From positions 1-64,000 of the forward strand of contig CAIXGS010000009.1 in NCBI GenBank assembly GCA_903919125.1: a DNA stretch of 64,000 bases. Reading direction: 5' to 3'. Origin of the DNA: an uncultured Spartobacteria bacterium (GTDB taxonomy: Bacteria; Verrucomicrobiota; Verrucomicrobiia; Chthoniobacterales; Chthoniobacteraceae). Below, piece by piece: positions 8,068 to 36,493 of this stretch. The notes below the pieces were generated by a model. The model saw only the letters and a program-made list of their open reading frames with translations, was not told the origin of the DNA and ran no database searches. How positions within the stretch are numbered: the first letter of the stretch is position 1; each line of letters opens with the position of its first letter. A program made the position numbers and the translations under genes.

Positions 8068-9891
8068 ATGAAGCACTCCCTCCCTCTCCTCACCGCCCTG
8101 CTGCTCGCGCCGCTGGCCGCGCTGCACGCCACCGACTCACTTACCCCTTACACGGCTGACAACGTGCCGCAGAACGTCGGGGATCTATGGAAGGATGTTG
8201 ATGCTCGCAAAGACGCACTCGAAACGAAGGTCGTGAAGGAGTGGAGTGAAGAAGGCGTGGTCTACCGCTACGTCATCTTCAAGGTCGGTACTTTCAAAGG
8301 CGCGGACTCGCGGATTGCGGCTTTCTATTGCTTCCCCAAGGGCGCGAAAAAGGTGCCTGCATTTGTGTGGGCGCATGGCGGTGGACAACGCGCAGATCGG
8401 GAGCGCGGCGCATATTTTGCCAAACAAGGTTATGCCACGGTGGACATCAACTGGGGCGGCCGCGAGATGGTCGAGGGGATTAATGAGAACACGGACTGGG
8501 GGAATGTTGATCCAAGCCAAGGACCGCAATTCTATCCGAAGGCGTTTCGAGCCGGGAAAAATAATTTCCTGCCGGACGAGCACACGATTGATTCGGTGGT
8601 TAGTCCGCGGAATGGAAACATGTTCTTGCTGACCTATGCCGCACGCCGGGCGATCACCTTTCTTGAACAACAACCGGAGGTCGATCCAGAGAAGATCGGA
8701 TTCACTGGGTACTCGATGGGTGGCAACATTACCTCGTATGTCGCCATCGATTCGAGGCTGAAAGCGGTGGTGCCCATGGTCGGTGGGACGGGCTTCATCA
8801 CGAGCGATTTCCCGGGAATCCCCGACCGGAACAAAGCAGCCGCCTATCGCGGTCACGTCGATTTGTTCGCCAACACCATGGAATCGCAGTCCTACTATCC
8901 GCATGTCAAAGTCCCCGTGCTTGTGCTAACGGCATCGGACGACGTTCACGGGATTGTTGACCGCGCTTACACTTGTATGGACGCGCTGCCGCATGATGAC
9001 TGGCGGGTAAGCTTGAAGATGCATTTCAACCACAATCTCGGGGCGGAGCAGTGGATCATGATCAATCAATGGTTCGACAAATACCTCAAGGGCGAGCCCC
9101 TCAACATCCCGCGGACCGCCGAGTCGAGCCTCGCTCTCAAGACGGAGACACAAACCGCCGTGTTCACCGTGAAGCCTGATCAGCCCGGTCAACTCAAGGA
9201 CCTCGACATCTACTACAGCTATGACCCGAACCCGCAGTCACGCTTCTGGAAGCTCGCGACCAACGTGCAACACGAGGGCGATAGCTGGTCCGCGATCCTG
9301 CCGGTGCATTCCGGTCTGCCTCTATTTGTCTTTGCCAACTGCACCTATCCGCTCGGCACCGAACGGGAATCCTTCGATGGCAGAACTTCCACCTATACCA
9401 TCACCTCTAGGGAGCAGGTGCATCTGCCCACCGAGTGGAAACTGGAAAACTTGAAGACCCTGGCCACCAGTGATGAATTCCTGCCATCTTTTGAGCGTGG
9501 CTGGGGCGATTCGCCCAGAGGCGGACTCACGACCTACAAGTTCCGCGACCCCGAGATGAGACTCCCCGGCACAGACCGCGCACTGGGTCTCACTCTGAAC
9601 GGCGTCACCGATAGCTATGGCGTGCGATTCCGCATAACGAGGAACCACTACCTCACAGACGTCAAAGCATCGTCGCAGGATTACGTGGCAAGCGTCCTCA
9701 TCAAACCGGGTGACACCAAGGTCGTCGTTGGCCTTGCTGATTTCATTGATTCCAAGAAGCAAACCATGCCCGACTGGAGCAACGTCTCCACCCTCACACT
9801 GGAATTCATTCAAAAAGGAAAGTCGATACTCCTGAAGGGTAATCCCGTGCTCCAGTCACTGGAGTGGACGGCTGGGAAGGCGGAGAAATAG
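8068..9891 (+). CDS. Secreted alpha/beta hydrolase, acetyl-xylan-esterase-like
   Basis: A 607-residue exported esterase. The signal peptide MKHSLPLLTALLLAPLAALHA is followed by an alpha/beta-hydrolase domain: oxyanion HGGG at 103-106, nucleophile elbow GYSMGG at 214-219 (Ser216), an acidic segment TASDD and the catalytic-His candidate FNHNLG. Residues about 360-600 form a separate beta-rich domain found behind several dienelactone-hydrolase-like esterases. AAAGGA before the ATG is a good ribosome site. It closes the operon of sulfatase, SGNH esterase and EF-hand sulfatase, so removal of acetyl or other ester groups from the same glycan is likely. Its last 64 codons are duplicated at 13838-14031. 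The acyl group and sugar are not determined. Confidence 0.87.
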   Translation: MKHSLPLLTALLLAPLAALHATDSLTPYTADNVPQNVGDLWKDVDARKDALETKVVKEWSEEGVVYRYVIFKVGTFKGADSRIAAFYCFPKGAKKVPAFVWAHGGGQRADRERGAYFAKQGYATVDINWGGREMVEGINENTDWGNVDPSQGPQFYPKAFRAGKNNFLPDEHTIDSVVSPRNGNMFLLTYAARRAITFLEQQPEVDPEKIGFTGYSMGGNITSYVAIDSRLKAVVPMVGGTGFITSDFPGIPDRNKAAAYRGHVDLFANTMESQSYYPHVKVPVLVLTASDDVHGIVDRAYTCMDALPHDDWRVSLKMHFNHNLGAEQWIMINQWFDKYLKGEPLNIPRTAESSLALKTETQTAVFTVKPDQPGQLKDLDIYYSYDPNPQSRFWKLATNVQHEGDSWSAILPVHSGLPLFVFANCTYPLGTERESFDGRTSTYTITSREQVHLPTEWKLENLKTLATSDEFLPSFERGWGDSPRGGLTTYKFRDPEMRLPGTDRALGLTLNGVTDSYGVRFRITRNHYLTDVKASSQDYVASVLIKPGDTKVVVGLADFIDSKKQTMPDWSNVSTLTLEFIQKGKSILLKGNPVLQSLEWTAGKAEK

Positions 9892-9893
9892 CA
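9698..9893 (+). repeat. Source copy of a duplicated 196-bp gene tail
   Basis: This 3' end of the esterase gene, including the stop codon and two following bases, recurs at 13838-14033 with six mismatches by my alignment. The second copy is bounded by short repeats on both sides; this copy is not. Confidence 0.9.
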
Positions 9894-9913
9894 TGATCAT
9901 GGGGGGGCGCCCC

Positions 9914-11803: not shown

Positions 11804-11967
11804 TTACTGAGTCTCGTAGGCCTGCTGCAAATTCGAGGAGCGCCCGCTCATGGGAGAAGCTTTGCTTTCCCTTGGCTCCTCCACGGGTACAGTCACCTCC
11901 CCGTCTGAGGATCAGCCACGTTGAATTCACCATGCGAGCCCCCTCTTTCCGCCGTTCATCAAGCGCG

Positions 11968-12006
11968 CCCCGCGACGATACCGCGCGCGCGAGCTGCGGA
12001 ATGGGG
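11968..12006. repeat. CCGCGACGAYACCGCGCGC repeat, copy 1
   Basis: CCGCGACGATACCGCGCGC then GCTGCGGAA and ATGG match 16592-16628 (CCGCGACGACACCGCGCGC, GCTGCGGAAATGG) in the same orientation. Both copies stand just upstream of another dispersed repeat. Confidence 0.7.
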
Positions 12007-12007
12007 C

Positions 12008-12025
12008 GAAAAGCAATTTCTTACC
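12008..12025. repeat. GAAAAGCAATTTCTTACC repeat, copy 2
   Basis: Identical to 9953-9970. It lies 60 bp before the 35-bp GTGTCTGTCCC repeat. Confidence 0.7.
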
Positions 12026-12084
12026 AATGATACGGTGCGCCTAACGGCAACTGGCCGTTGTGAAAGTTCAACGACTCGGTTTCA

Positions 12085-13802: not shown

Positions 13803-13837
13803 GAGATTCTGGGAGTGTCTGTCCCCTGCGTCTCACT
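13803..13837. repeat. 35-bp dispersed repeat, copy 2, at a gene junction
   Basis: This copy lies exactly between the broken 5' gene remnant and the duplicated esterase tail. With two flanking bases its ends read AGTGAGA and TCTCACT, a perfect 7-bp inverted repeat. Confidence 0.9.
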
Positions 13838-14031
13838 TCATCAAACCGGGTGACACCAAGGTCGTCGTTGGCCTCGCTGATTTCCTTGATTCCAAGAAGC
13901 AAACCATGCCCGACTGGAGCAACGTCTCCACCCTCACACTGGAATTCATTCAAAAAGGAAAGTCGATACCCCTGAAGGGTAATACCATGCTCCAGTCACT
14001 TGAGTGGACGGCTGGGAAGGCGGAGAAATAG
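13838..14031 (+). pseudogene. Duplicated C-terminal fragment of the 8068 esterase
   Basis: These 64 codons plus stop match the end of the esterase (from IKPGDTKVVVGLADF to SLEWTAGKAEK) with six base changes in 196 bp. Three or four of these alter the protein (I to L, L to P, P and V changes). There is no start codon or catalytic domain; it is in frame with part of the upstream remnant through the repeat. High identity suggests a recent duplication or gene conversion within this locus. Confidence 0.9.
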
Positions 14032-14033
14032 CA

Positions 14034-14049
14034 AGAAATTGCTTTTCAC
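14034..14049. repeat. GAAAAGCAATTTCTT repeat, inverted copy 3
   Basis: AAGAAATTGCTTTTCA is the reverse complement of the 9953 and 12008 repeat. It begins one base after the end of the duplicated esterase tail. Confidence 0.65.
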
Positions 14050-14240: not shown

Positions 14241-14340
14241 CCTTGAGGTCCGTGAGAGTCAAAGCGATGGGGCCGTTTTCCGGTGGACGAACGCCGCAAA
14301 AGGGGCAAAAAGCAATTCTCCCTTACCGCGCCGCGGTAAG

Positions 14341-14386
14341 GCAGCCTTCCCCTCCATACGTACGTAAGAAGGAAATTCTTATCAGT
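14341..14386. repeat. 46-bp direct repeat, left of sulfatase 14567
   Basis: GCAGCCTTCCCCTCCATACG and the following 26 bp (ending AATTCTTATCAGT) recur at 16126-16171 with four mismatches. The two copies flank one sulfatase gene. Confidence 0.85.
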
Positions 14387-18423: not shown

Positions 18424-18611
18424 GCTTATGGAACACCGGTGCGGCCAAATAGTTTGGATTTTATTTGATTTTCGGGGGCGCTTTTGGGGCTCTTAACGCC
18501 TTAGTCCGGAGCGACTGCCGGGATTCTTACGGGGTGAGAGTCATGGGGGGCAGGAGAACTAGGGAACTAGGGGGCAGTGTTCATTTTCTCAGAGACAAAC
18601 CGCCTGAAATC

Positions 18612-18991
18612 CTTTGAAACCTTCTCCTGAATTTGCGGCAAATCCATGCGGTGGATGGCTCTACTCACATTGGCTGCATTTCTCATGCCCAGATGCTCCG
18701 CGATCCACGCTCAGGAGACCGTGTCTTTTTCCATAGCAACCTTGGAAGAAACACCTTTCGCGGCTCAGCGCAACCAAGCCCAACCAACTTTTCCTTGGCG
18801 AGGTTTGCCATCCTCAACCCCTCCTCGAGCAGGGCCAGCGCTTGTTGCTCACCATGAGCCTTCATTTTGAGACTTGCATCGTAGCCCCGCGCCTCGCGTT
18901 TTCGCCCCGTGGCCGCCTCGCCGAGCTTCAACAACTTCTCGGCGAACGCCTGTTTTCCCCAATACCAGCCGCGTCGCAAATGGCTTCCTCG
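18612..18991 (-). pseudogene. REP-associated tyrosine transposase (Y1/RAYT) remnant
   Basis: The minus strand carries the characteristic C-terminal part of RAYT transposases: RRGWYWGKQAFAEKLLKLGE, then a helical linker (EEGLRMANLAKEKL), then after a frame change the terminal helix-turn-helix WIAEHLGMRNAANVSRAIHR. One frameshift near 18745 and an in-frame TGA just before the last block break it, and the N-terminal catalytic domain with the HUH pair and nucleophile Tyr is absent. The fragment abuts the 3' end of a sulfatase gene. RAYTs mobilise REP-type palindromes in trans, so this is the likely fossil of the enzyme behind some of the short repeats here, as inference. Confidence 0.75.
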
Positions 18992-18995
18992 TTTG

Positions 18996-20912
18996 TTAAG
19001 GCTGGTCCGAGAAATCCACATCATCGATCCATACCCGGCCGGCGCCATCAGCCGCGCGCGTGAACACGACGTCCACCGTCGCCGCGTTGGCAGGAGCGTC
19101 GGCATCCAGACGCTGGGGCTCGAAGCCGTCATTGCTGCCGCTCGCAGCCGCGCTTTTTTGTTCGATAAACTTGCCGCTACCATCAAAGAAACGGAGATGC
19201 GCGGTGATGTTGCTGGATTGCGTATGATGCCACATCCATTGCAACCGATAACGGATCCCAGGCGTTGCTTTCCCAGCCACGCTGCGCCACTGGCCGATCT
19301 GCTGTTTGCCGGCAGCGTTCTCGGAGATGTGTAACGAATGGCGCCCGCTGACGCACTTTTCGGTGGACCATTGCACACCGCTCTCACTGTGATACCAAGC
19401 GGCAGGCCAGATGCCTCTAGGCTGCGCTTCCTCCATATTGCCGTTGGATAACAAGTTGCCAAACAGAGGCCGTCCATCAGGACGTAACGGACGGGTCTGG
19501 TTCCAGCGCGGCGGGCTCATTTCACGCTCCCACGTCTCCAAATCGCGGTTTAGTTCTGCCAGCACGTCCGGCCGATCTGCAGCAAGGTCTTTCGATTCCG
19601 TCAAATCCGCAGTCAGATCAAAAAGTTGATCCTTCCCATTACGTTCTTTTACCAGCTTCATCCGGCCTTTTCGTACAGCCTTGAACGTGTGATACCGCCA
19701 GAAGAGGGTTTCGTGTATTGCGCCAGTCTTCGCGCCGCTCAGGAAAGGCGTGATATCCACCCCGTCTGTTTTTTCGGGAGGCGGAGCGCCGGCGGCGGCT
19801 AGTAGGGTGGGCACGATGTCTAGCGAGGATGCCGGTTCCTCAAAAGTAATTCCGCCCGGTATTTTTGCGGGCCACTCGACGATGTATGGAATTCGGATGC
19901 CGCCCTCCCAACACTCGCCCTTATAGCCCCGCAGAGGCGTGTTGAGGGAATAATTTGCGCAGCTCGGATCGACGCTTGTCTGATGGCCTCCGGGGCTCCC
20001 GCCGTTGTCGGACAAAAATATCAGCAGCGTGTTTTCGGCGAGACCCCGCTCCCGCAGATGTTCGCGCAGTTTGCCGATGTCTTCATCCATTGCGGCCATC
20101 ATCGACGCGACGGTTCGGCGGACGGGATTCTCGATATGCCGCAGCTTCTCCTCCCAGCGCGGACAGGGAGTGATCGGCGTATGAACCGCGTTGTATGCGA
20201 GGTAAAGGAAGAAGGGTTGTTGCGGCTTTTCGTCGACGAATCGCAGCGCCTCCCGGGTAAAGGCGTCTGTGAGGTATTCCTCTTCCGCGACAACCTCGTG
20301 TCCGCGGAGTATCGGCGACTTGCCGGCTTCCTTGAAATGGACGGGTTTGAAGGGCGGGGTGGATTTGAAATAGAAATTCCCGGGATGATCATCTGAGAGA
20401 TAGGCGCGGCCGCCCTCGAGGAAGCCAAAGAACTCGTCAAAGCCGCGTTGCTGGGGATGAAAGTTCTGATGCGCACCGAGGTGCCATTTGCCGATGCAGG
20501 CCGTCCGGTAACCCGTCGCGCGGAGTCGGTCGGCGATTGTTTTTTCCTCAACGGGTAATCCCATCAGCTCTGGGTGTTCGAGTTCCCAGCTTTGGGCGAT
20601 GTTGTTCTCGTGCCCGAAGCGGTGTTGGTATTTGCCCGTCAGCAGTGCGGCGCGTGTCGGGCTACACACTGGACAGGTGACGTAACCGGAGGTGAACCGT
20701 GCGCCTGCCTTGGCCATGGCGTCGAGGTTTGGCGTCGGGGCATCTTTGCCCCCGTAGCAGCCGAGTTCACCGTAACCAAGGTCGTCGGCGAGGATAAGGA
20801 TGATGTTGGGTTTGGCCGCGGTCTGGGAGGCTTCCACGCCGGAAATCGAGGCAAGCAGGACGGCTAATATGGGCAGAGAGAAGGCTGGGAGCCGAGCGCC
20901 AAAGGGGTTCAT
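18996..20912 (-). CDS. Secreted sulfatase with C-terminal beta-sandwich domain
   Basis: A 638-residue sulfatase. A signal segment (FSLPILAVLLASISGVEA) precedes PNIILILADDLGYGELGCYG, and CSPTR at 83-87 is the formylglycine motif. IGKWHLGAH and LSDNGGSPGG complete the core, which ends near residue 475. Residues about 490-638 form an extra domain starting LLSNGNMEEAQP and ending RVWIDDVDFSDQP, the pattern of carbohydrate-binding-like beta sandwiches (CBM4/9/22-type). This would anchor the enzyme to its polysaccharide. It begins 21 bp after the GxGYxYP-like gene and is almost certainly co-transcribed with it. Directly behind its stop codon lies the transposase remnant. Confidence 0.9.
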   Translation of the reverse strand: MNPFGARLPAFSLPILAVLLASISGVEASQTAAKPNIILILADDLGYGELGCYGGKDAPTPNLDAMAKAGARFTSGYVTCPVCSPTRAALLTGKYQHRFGHENNIAQSWELEHPELMGLPVEEKTIADRLRATGYRTACIGKWHLGAHQNFHPQQRGFDEFFGFLEGGRAYLSDDHPGNFYFKSTPPFKPVHFKEAGKSPILRGHEVVAEEEYLTDAFTREALRFVDEKPQQPFFLYLAYNAVHTPITPCPRWEEKLRHIENPVRRTVASMMAAMDEDIGKLREHLRERGLAENTLLIFLSDNGGSPGGHQTSVDPSCANYSLNTPLRGYKGECWEGGIRIPYIVEWPAKIPGGITFEEPASSLDIVPTLLAAAGAPPPEKTDGVDITPFLSGAKTGAIHETLFWRYHTFKAVRKGRMKLVKERNGKDQLFDLTADLTESKDLAADRPDVLAELNRDLETWEREMSPPRWNQTRPLRPDGRPLFGNLLSNGNMEEAQPRGIWPAAWYHSESGVQWSTEKCVSGRHSLHISENAAGKQQIGQWRSVAGKATPGIRYRLQWMWHHTQSSNITAHLRFFDGSGKFIEQKSAAASGSNDGFEPQRLDADAPANAATVDVVFTRAADGAGRVWIDDVDFSDQP

Positions 20913-35558: not shown

Positions 35559-35742
35559 AGCCCCAACGGGGCGACCTGCGCTAGCCCCAGGCAGCGCCTG
35601 GGGAAAACGCCCCCAATGAACCGAGCCCTGTCAGGGCGCTATAAGGCCCTGTAAATTAGAGTGCCCCCTTCAGGGCTTCCGGAAGCTTGCATATTCTCCT
35701 AGGGCGTTGCCCTAGGCTATATTAGATCGCCCCGTTGGGGCT
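35559..35742. repeat. 184-bp nested palindromic element
   Basis: The ends AGCCCCAACGGGGCGA and TCGCCCCGTTGGGGCT are a perfect 16-bp inverted repeat, and each end is itself a hairpin. Inside lie further paired small palindromes: CCCCAGGCAGCGCCTGGGG near 35584 with CCTAGGGCGTTGCCCTAGG near 35698, and GCCCTGTCAGGGC with CCCCCTTCAGGG. No coding capacity is present. Similar chains of CCCCAACGGGG and GCCCTGxxAGGGC palindromes are familiar from intergenic DNA of Verrucomicrobiota, Chlorobi and Bacteroidota. Confidence 0.8.
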
Positions 35743-35768
35743 TGAGACGTCCTTTTGCGGAGGTTGGA

Positions 35769-35784
35769 AGTGTCTGTCCCCATT
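35769..35784. repeat. AGTGTCTGTCCCCATT repeat
   Basis: Copy of the GTGTCTGTCCC core directly joined to the large inverted element at 35791. Confidence 0.7.
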
Positions 35785-35790
35785 GCGCCT

Positions 35791-36120
35791 CCTCGCGCCA
35801 TCGATCACGCTTTCAGGTTGGTTCCGATGCCGGAGGCATCAAAGTCATTAGACGGTCGGTTGAGCGAAGCGACACCACCGGATCCGATACAAAAAACGCC
35901 ACGCATCCCATAGGGATGCCAGTCCTTCCATGCTGCTGTGCCATTGTTATTTCGCGCCGACGCACAACGTGTTTCCCACACAAAGTGGCTTGTTATGCCC
36001 CTAACGCCCCGCCGCTAGCATCCCTCTGGGATGCAGGCTGTTCCGGCCTGACAAACCGGTGGTGTCGTCGCGTCGCTCCTCAACCTCCGGCTAATGGCTT
36101 TCATGCCTCCGGCATGGCAA
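35791..36120. repeat. Inverted-repeat element with arms of about 100 bp
   Basis: The left arm (about 35825-35935: GATGCCGGAGGCATC, TTGAGCGAAGCGACACCACC, CATCCCATAGGGATG) and the right arm (about 36015-36120: CATCCCTCTGGGATG, GGTGGTGTCGTCGCGTCGC, CATGCCTCCGGCATG) are imperfect reverse complements around a spacer of about 80 bp. The outer part, 35791-35853, matches the repeats at 11-193 in inverted orientation. There is no coding capacity. Confidence 0.75.
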
Positions 36121-36289
36121 ATCGCAGCATCCCCACGACGACTTTGGGCTCCGCGCTCCCCAAGTTATAAGGCCCCGCAACCTACTGGCCCAACTTCAAC
36201 GTCCACCCGCCCGTGGAAAGTGCGGGCGCAACACCCGACTCCACCCAACCACGCGCCCGTAACAACTCGTCCAACGACGAAGGAGAGCA

Positions 36290-36301
36290 AGTGTCTGTCC
36301 C
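36290..36301. repeat. AGTGTCTGTCCC repeat
   Basis: Last copy of the core motif seen; none was noticed to the right of 36.4 kb. Confidence 0.6.
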
Positions 36302-36359
36302 TATTTGCGCCCGCTCGCTTTTCCAGGGCCCCAAGTGCCAGACACTGTTGCACGCGCTC

Positions 36360-36420
36360 CAACCAAAAGGAGTGCCGTACCGCGATCACTCAAAAAAGCG
36401 TCTTAACTAAGAGCCATTCG
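36360..36420. repeat. Inverted repeat, right member (partner 181-241)
   Basis: Reads CAACCAAAAGGAGTGCCGTA and continues through CCGCGATCACTC to GCCATTCG, the reverse complement of 181-241 with few mismatches. It lies 74 bp from the end of a broken XRE regulator gene. Confidence 0.85.
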
Positions 36421-36493
36421 TAATTGCCTCCATGTTCCCTCCGCTCAATTTGGCCAGCGAATGTGTCCCCGTAGAAGACTTTTCCGACTCGGC

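Follow-up and report, generated by a model that had tools for sequence, protein, structure and literature searches.

Among the described systems, those closest to this locus are the terminal-inverted-repeat tyrosine transposases (TIRYTs) and their elements (TIRtrons), in which, according to the available sections of Di Nocera et al. (2013; PMC3733652), a Y1 transposase gene lies between GGGGWSAS-type terminal inverted repeats without REP hairpins, the repeats being dispersed in moderately abundant copies. Judging by titles, of eight papers that contain the term only that one and Quentin et al. (2018; PMC6006769) use it in the present sense. The available sections of the latter describe a TnpA-Y1 subclass 2.1 that has no REP and a median length of 238 aa, is marked by the motifs NH[YF]H and Y[IV]HLNP and by a long C-terminal extension containing an HTH/DnaA-like region, and is equated there with most TIRYTs; for a further subclass, 2.3, they give an NHYH motif and report no REP-like repeats.

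In the window analysed here, the whole stretch of 64,000 nucleotides, we found a minus-strand block running from 18996 to 18562 with continuous homology to transposase copies of the same genus. Its identity to copies in two congeners is 88-91% at the DNA level (87.6% over 436 nt with one single-base gap for L021, and 90.6% over 383 nt for L020, whose contig ends there), and its extent, 18562-18996, goes somewhat beyond the 18612-18991 delimited by the initial annotation. We consider it highly probable (about 0.86) that what lies here is the 3' third of a dead TIRtron, an element of ~1.13 kb with one HUH/Y1 transposase gene of ~350 aa between 34-bp terminal inverted repeats, and that it does not derive from the enzyme of the short repeat GGGACAGACAC. 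What the fossil retains of a ~350-aa Y1 (HUH) transposase is its C-terminal tail (protein match to L023 residues 208-302 and 295-348) together with the 3' terminal repeat, and the 5' part, including the Y1 domain, is gone. The two peptides from which a frame-broken remnant had been proposed are both present on the minus strand, in two frames: RRGWYWGKQAF opens the first readable piece of the tail (18716-18996, frame read from 19009, 69% identity to L023), and WIAEHLGMRNAANVSRAI belongs to a second piece (18567-18710, frame read from 19010, 59% identity to L023 residues 295-348) that runs from a putative DnaA-like/HTH region to the old C-terminus. Between them the reading is disrupted by one frameshift and one nonsense codon, the latter in-frame after the frame change. 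The 3' terminal inverted repeat (18565-18590, minus strand, core 18570-18587) overlaps the last codons and is 92-93% identical to the repeats of L020, L021 and L024; it matches without mismatch the pattern GGGGNCAGTGTTCATTTT, which we searched for allowing up to 2 mismatches, and its tip, GGGGGCAG, is one base off GGGGWSAS. No 5' repeat of the fossil was found.

The mismatches between the fossil and L021 are distributed over the three codon positions as 18, 12 and 22, and those between L021 and the open gene L137 as 25, 17 and 54, a difference that weakly suggests a pseudogene-like pattern in the fossil. A 67-aa piece of the fossil finds a match at E = 1e-32 in a congener, far beyond chance, and is matched in 32 of 286 genomes of the class at E <= 0.001, its own genome included; many of these matches sit in open frames of ~350 codons. 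We conclude that the remnant is an ordinary decayed element of a type already described, exactly placed and without present function.

Relatives of the fossil were sought with this 67-aa piece in the 286 genomes, and eight of the longer ones were scanned with profiles. The check with Y1_Tnp models proposed in the initial annotation gave a divided answer: the pieces of the fossil matched no Pfam or NCBIfam family up to E = 10, because the catalytic Y1 part is missing, and seven of the eight longer relatives carry Y1_Tnp above the Pfam cut-off, the remaining one, L021, scoring 21.4 against a cut-off of 23 in a frame that lacks the N-terminus. All eight also match the NCBIfam family NF047646 (REP-associated tyrosine transposase), with 36-67 bits and thus below its 80-bit cut-off, and the HUH (NHYH) and YIHLNP motifs are invariant across seven aligned relatives. 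Related loci were found at 16 places in named genomes, all of them assembled from metagenomes under the titles Spartobacteria, Chthoniobacteraceae or other Verrucomicrobia; at one of these the protein equals that of L023, whose genome belongs to the order of the window.

The most informative relative is L137 (VFJO01000218.1), an open gene of 352 codons (352 aa) between perfect 34-bp inverted repeats, AACTAGGGGTCAGTGTTCATTTTCTTTCATTTTT, which carry GGGGTCAG, the fossil's type. The outer ends of its GGGG/CCCC tips enclose 1130 bp, and its 3' repeat overlaps the last codons, likewise as in the fossil. L137 contains Y1_Tnp (Pfam) and scores 65 bits with NF047646, below the cut-off of 80. Its predicted structure, of moderate quality (mean pLDDT 69.5), has as best PDB match the E. 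coli TnpAREP (4er8, E 1.8e-5); a Foldseek search with the same model also proposed the DnaA DNA-binding domain 3pvp (probability 0.97, at an E of only 0.51), and Pfam gave no HTH match for L137 at E <= 0.01. A sequence search of the PDB with one relative returned no match at E <= 0.01, and a profile search retrieved 4er8 at E 0.031. Across 29 related loci, a GGGG[AT][CG]A[CG]-like (GGGGWSAS) core occurs on the 5' side in 19, on the 3' side in 20 and on both in 14, against one and one for the reversed patterns, in a count that leaves out our own fossil, includes many loci cut by contig ends and uses patterns picked after viewing the flanks.

As far as the available sections of the two papers define them, the features of L137 are those of TIRYTs (PMC3733652) and of subclass 2.1 (PMC6006769) rather than those of REP-flanked RAYTs, and the fossil is therefore best named a TIRYT and not a hairpin-REP RAYT. 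Like the TIRtrons described in PMC3733652, the family has a Y1 gene between non-hairpin GGGGWSAS-type inverted repeats and dispersed copies; unlike the elements in the sections available, the copy in the window is decayed, 5'-truncated and one base off the consensus at its tip, and internally deleted derivatives occur in congeners. The family probably belongs to subclass 2.1: the NH[YF]H and Y[IV]HLNP motifs, the long C-terminal tail and the lack of REP agree with the available description, whereas a length of ~350 aa exceeds the median of 238 aa given there (PMC6006769). With E. coli TnpAREP (PDB 4er8), a RAYT, the family shares the HUH/Y1 core and, through the model of L137, the closest structural likeness, but it is longer, with a C-terminal domain, and has inverted-repeat ends without a hairpin. 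Domesticated transposases are reportedly the subject of work by Bertels and colleagues from 2017. A RAYT in the strict sense (a REPtron) was rejected, since the 34-bp terminal repeat has no GT[AG]G foot anywhere along its length and no hairpin, and NF047646 stays below 80 bits; three folded stretches with the fossil-type repeat gave z values of 0.13, 0.28 and 0.78. An IS200/IS605 TnpA (subclass 1.1, ~150 aa, Y---Q) was likewise rejected, since the open relatives are mostly ~350 aa and the seven aligned ones carry YIHLNP. The initial annotation of the fossil as a RAYT thus stands at the level of the RAYT/TnpA-Y1 superfamily (Y1_Tnp in seven of eight relatives) and not for RAYTs sensu stricto (36-67 against 80 bits with NF047646).

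The remnant had also been said to abut directly the stop codon of a sulfatase gene, and this is borne out. The gene (18996-20912, minus strand; an ORF with a Pfam Sulfatase match at E 2.6e-65) has an orthologue in the genome G296 (L058) that is 88% identical up to window position 19000 and no further; the homology to the transposase begins at 18996, so that a seam of three bases (18997-18999), where the sulfatase stop codon lies, separates the two. The orthologue reads two more codons past the end of the alignment before its stop, and the DNA that follows differs from that of the window; an empty site was not found, G296 having other DNA behind its sulfatase. There (L058:1221-1500) the sulfatase is directly followed by the tail of an apparent tyrosine-recombinase gene, a family that we read by eye, and the end of the sulfatase is thus adjoined by two different mobile-gene remnants in two species. 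As read from the alignments, the seam fits a deletion that brought the end of the sulfatase gene up against the interior of a transposase gene. We propose that the live transposase would have combined a catalytic Y1 domain with a long C-terminal tail bearing a DnaA-like DNA-binding region and, by analogy with IS200/IS605 and TnpAREP, may have cut single DNA strands at the tips of the repeats and mobilised the DNA lying between two such tips. A full copy would once have lain downstream of the sulfatase, a deletion would have taken away the catalytic part and the 5' repeat and left the sulfatase joined to the interior of the transposase gene, and the remaining piece would then have decayed. This order of events at the sulfatase is one that we can only infer, since neither a 5' repeat nor an empty site was found.

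Two other readings of the same junction have to be weighed against a truncated full element. The remnant could already have been a non-autonomous derivative with an internal deletion when it inserted, and have lost one of its two ends afterwards. Such derivatives exist in congeners: at seven places that we read, facing tip pairs bound pieces of 126-409 bp (L150-L156), and in three of them (L154, L155 and L156) both ends of the full element are joined with the middle missing, so that the fossil's element family has generated short derivatives. Two of the pieces, L150 and L151, are near-identical copies in two species that share the right flank and differ in the left. At the locus itself, the seam of 3 nt holds neither a 5' repeat nor a leader between fossil and sulfatase, and an insertion of this kind is inseparable from the truncation of a full copy; we regard it as very unlikely. 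Far less credible still, and practically dismissed, is that the open frame at 18683-19477 is a functional chimera that has co-opted the transposase's DNA-binding tail. The frame is indeed open for 264 aa, but its upstream ~60% is the sulfatase gene in another frame, the transposase homology starts only at 18996 and the conserved C-terminus is lost at the frame break, and G296 has different DNA after its sulfatase. The truncated TIRtron remains our preferred reading.

The element family has left further traces. The pattern GGGGNCAGTGTTCATTTT occurs 18 times in the fossil's own genome, against 0 for the reversed pattern, and in the 64-kb window at two places, the fossil's own end and 363-380. 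The latter (1 mismatch) lies in a minus-strand trace of ~41 nt (346-386) that resembles the 5' end of the element, repeat plus leader, and is 88-90% identical over 41 nt to L150 and L152. Four of the 18 copies mark C-terminal coding remnants, and two, judged by eye, mark remnants of the 5' leader. More than six copies are found in only three of 40 genomes of the family, namely G000, G209 and G232 (18, 21 and 14, respectively). A protein search of the own genome found C-terminal pieces of the fossil's family at five loci (C9, C4, C49, C43 and C39) and two weak matches on the other Y1 gene (C78 and C36). The intact parent that the initial annotation had expected in this genome did not turn up: only pieces of the family were found in an assembly that is 95% complete and could miss a copy. 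When the 11-kb sulfatase island was compared with four congeners, only G209 and G232 contained the stretch of the fossil, and no interpretable island breakpoints in common were found.

A second repeat, the 11-mer GGGACAGACAC, is far more frequent, with 180 copies in the own genome against 1 for its reversed pattern. Ten of these units (11 nt each, read as GGGACAGACAC or GTGTCTGTCCC) lie in the window, at 171, 285, 9916, 12097, 13815, 16259, 16638, 35404, 35770 and 36291, five of them between 9.9 and 16.7 kb. Throughout the class, only 4 of 286 genomes contain more than eight copies (G040 with 573, the own genome with 180, G232 with 66 and G239 with 17), the other 282 having eight or fewer; in one genome, G161, the reversed control pattern also recurs, with 17 copies. 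In G239, the two tandem stretches that we read (L160:167-331 and L161:68-137) hold eleven of its 17 copies in units of 22-23 nt, a different arrangement.

In its own genome, GGGACAGACAC lies 54 nt upstream of C36, the one long open class-2 Y1 gene found there, whose protein of 333 aa has NHFH and YVDLNP motifs and 54 more residues between HUH and Y than L137. The other Y1_Tnp matches of this genome, five in all with C36, are a 150-aa IS200-like gene (C49), 2.3-like C69 (twice) and C61. C36 fits subclass 2.3 as the available sections of PMC6006769 describe it, in its 333 aa, its NHFH (NHYH in the paper) and its YVDLNP, but the lack of REP-like repeats reported in those sections contrasts with the GGGACAG unit found upstream of 18 of 30 C36 relatives. 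In that count, for which motif and distance were picked after viewing the flanks, GGGACAG/CTGTCCC was present within 120 nt upstream of 18 of 30 2.3-like loci, the own gene included, against 0 for reversed patterns; downstream it was present within 120 nt at 2 of the 30, four of which had only 2 nt left on that side. In G040, which belongs to another family, six of eight Y1 matches are 2.3-like by eye and all six carry the 11-mer upstream, these being near-identical copies called from their N-terminal parts, as their contigs end inside the gene; the stretches read at the other two matches contain no GGGACAGACAC. A scan for inverted repeats around 2.3-like genes gave mostly short, chance-like matches.

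The distribution across genomes points the same way, with exceptions. G209 has 2 copies of GGGACAGACAC and no 2.3-like match at E <= 1e-30, yet 21 copies of the fossil-type repeat, and G232 has 66 copies of GGGACAGACAC and three 2.3-like matches, with a 2.3-like open frame of 343 codons among them. This contrast, together with the position of GGGACAGACAC upstream of 2.3-like genes, links the 11-mer with the other enzyme. At the same time, a 2.3-like match at E <= 1e-30 is present in 44 genomes, a set outside which G040 with its 573 copies falls, and 42 of the 44 have eight or fewer copies; the link between gene and repeat is therefore not universal, and the gene alone does not entail amplification of GGGACAGACAC. 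Several 2.3-like loci of low-copy genomes carry GGGACAGG-type variants upstream instead. The chances seem to us evenly balanced that 2.3-like TnpA-Y1 enzymes in this class have a cognate GGGACAGACAC-type unit ~50-130 bp upstream, whose copy number was raised to 66, 180 and 573 in three gene-bearing genomes of two families and which tends to flank small duplicated segments, for example in the sulfatase island.

This bears directly on the proposal of the initial annotation that a fossil RAYT had mobilised the short palindromic repeats of the island before it decayed. The fossil does belong to the same superfamily, and GGGACAGACAC is frequent nearby, lying within 72 nt of 5 of the 18 copies of the fossil's repeat, so that the two systems intermingle. 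The relatives of the fossil, on the other hand, bear GGGGTCAG-type ends, GGGACAGACAC accompanies the 2.3-like gene (at C36, at the 18 of 30 loci and at the six of G040), and G209, which has the fossil's family, contains the 11-mer just twice and lacks a 2.3-like match at that threshold. The island holds the fossil's repeat only at the fossil's own end, and the unit that recurs in it is the one that accompanies the longer Y1 gene. Moreover, six folded stretches with either repeat fold no better than shuffles, which goes against a palindromic or hairpin nature for both in these stretches. Of the two outcomes that the initial annotation had named as contrary evidence, the lack of a profile match holds literally for the fragment, though only through the loss of its Y1 domain, and the other, an intact RAYT beside unrelated repeats, is in part realised by C36, which is preceded by GGGACAGACAC and not by the repeat of the fossil. 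We therefore hold it to be very unlikely that the fossil's enzyme mobilised these repeats, and retain the reading of the fossil as the remains of a TIRtron with a terminal repeat of its own. Elsewhere in the window, clusters at 8-242 and 35559-36447 contain GATGCCTCCGGCATC palindromes and CCCCAACGGGGC-type stems and look truly palindromic, unlike the two repeats studied here.

Rearrangement of the island at GGGACAGACAC units is plausible, and would concern the other enzyme, not that of the fossil, to which the shaping of the island had been attributed. A 199-bp segment is present with 96% identity at 13838-14036 and 9698-9896, and the former begins exactly at the end of a 36-bp unit with GTGTCTGTCCC (within 13803-14036) that has three copies in the window. 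Furthermore, in 184 kb of own-genome sequence, mostly picked for repeat copies, 250 ends of duplicated segments were compared with the positions of GGGACAGACAC units: 44 fell no more than 8 bp away, against 6.2 on average and at most 15 in 500 random draws. As matches overlap and were counted in both directions, these figures overstate the evidence. These data support a role in local rearrangement for the second repeat system, and not for the fossil. Two more families of dispersed repeats are present in the window, at 11962-12028 and 14323-14386, and match congeners many times (for the first, in G294, G296, G209 and G232).

Taken together, the analysis tells apart two sets of repeats that could readily be mistaken for a single one. 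A terminal repeat can be assigned to a particular enzyme, of which an open relative (L137) is publicly available, and a candidate partner repeat emerges for a Y1 subclass reported to lack any. If the link between this repeat and the 2.3-like enzymes is true, it would offer a simple test case for the spread of very short repeats by single-strand transposases.
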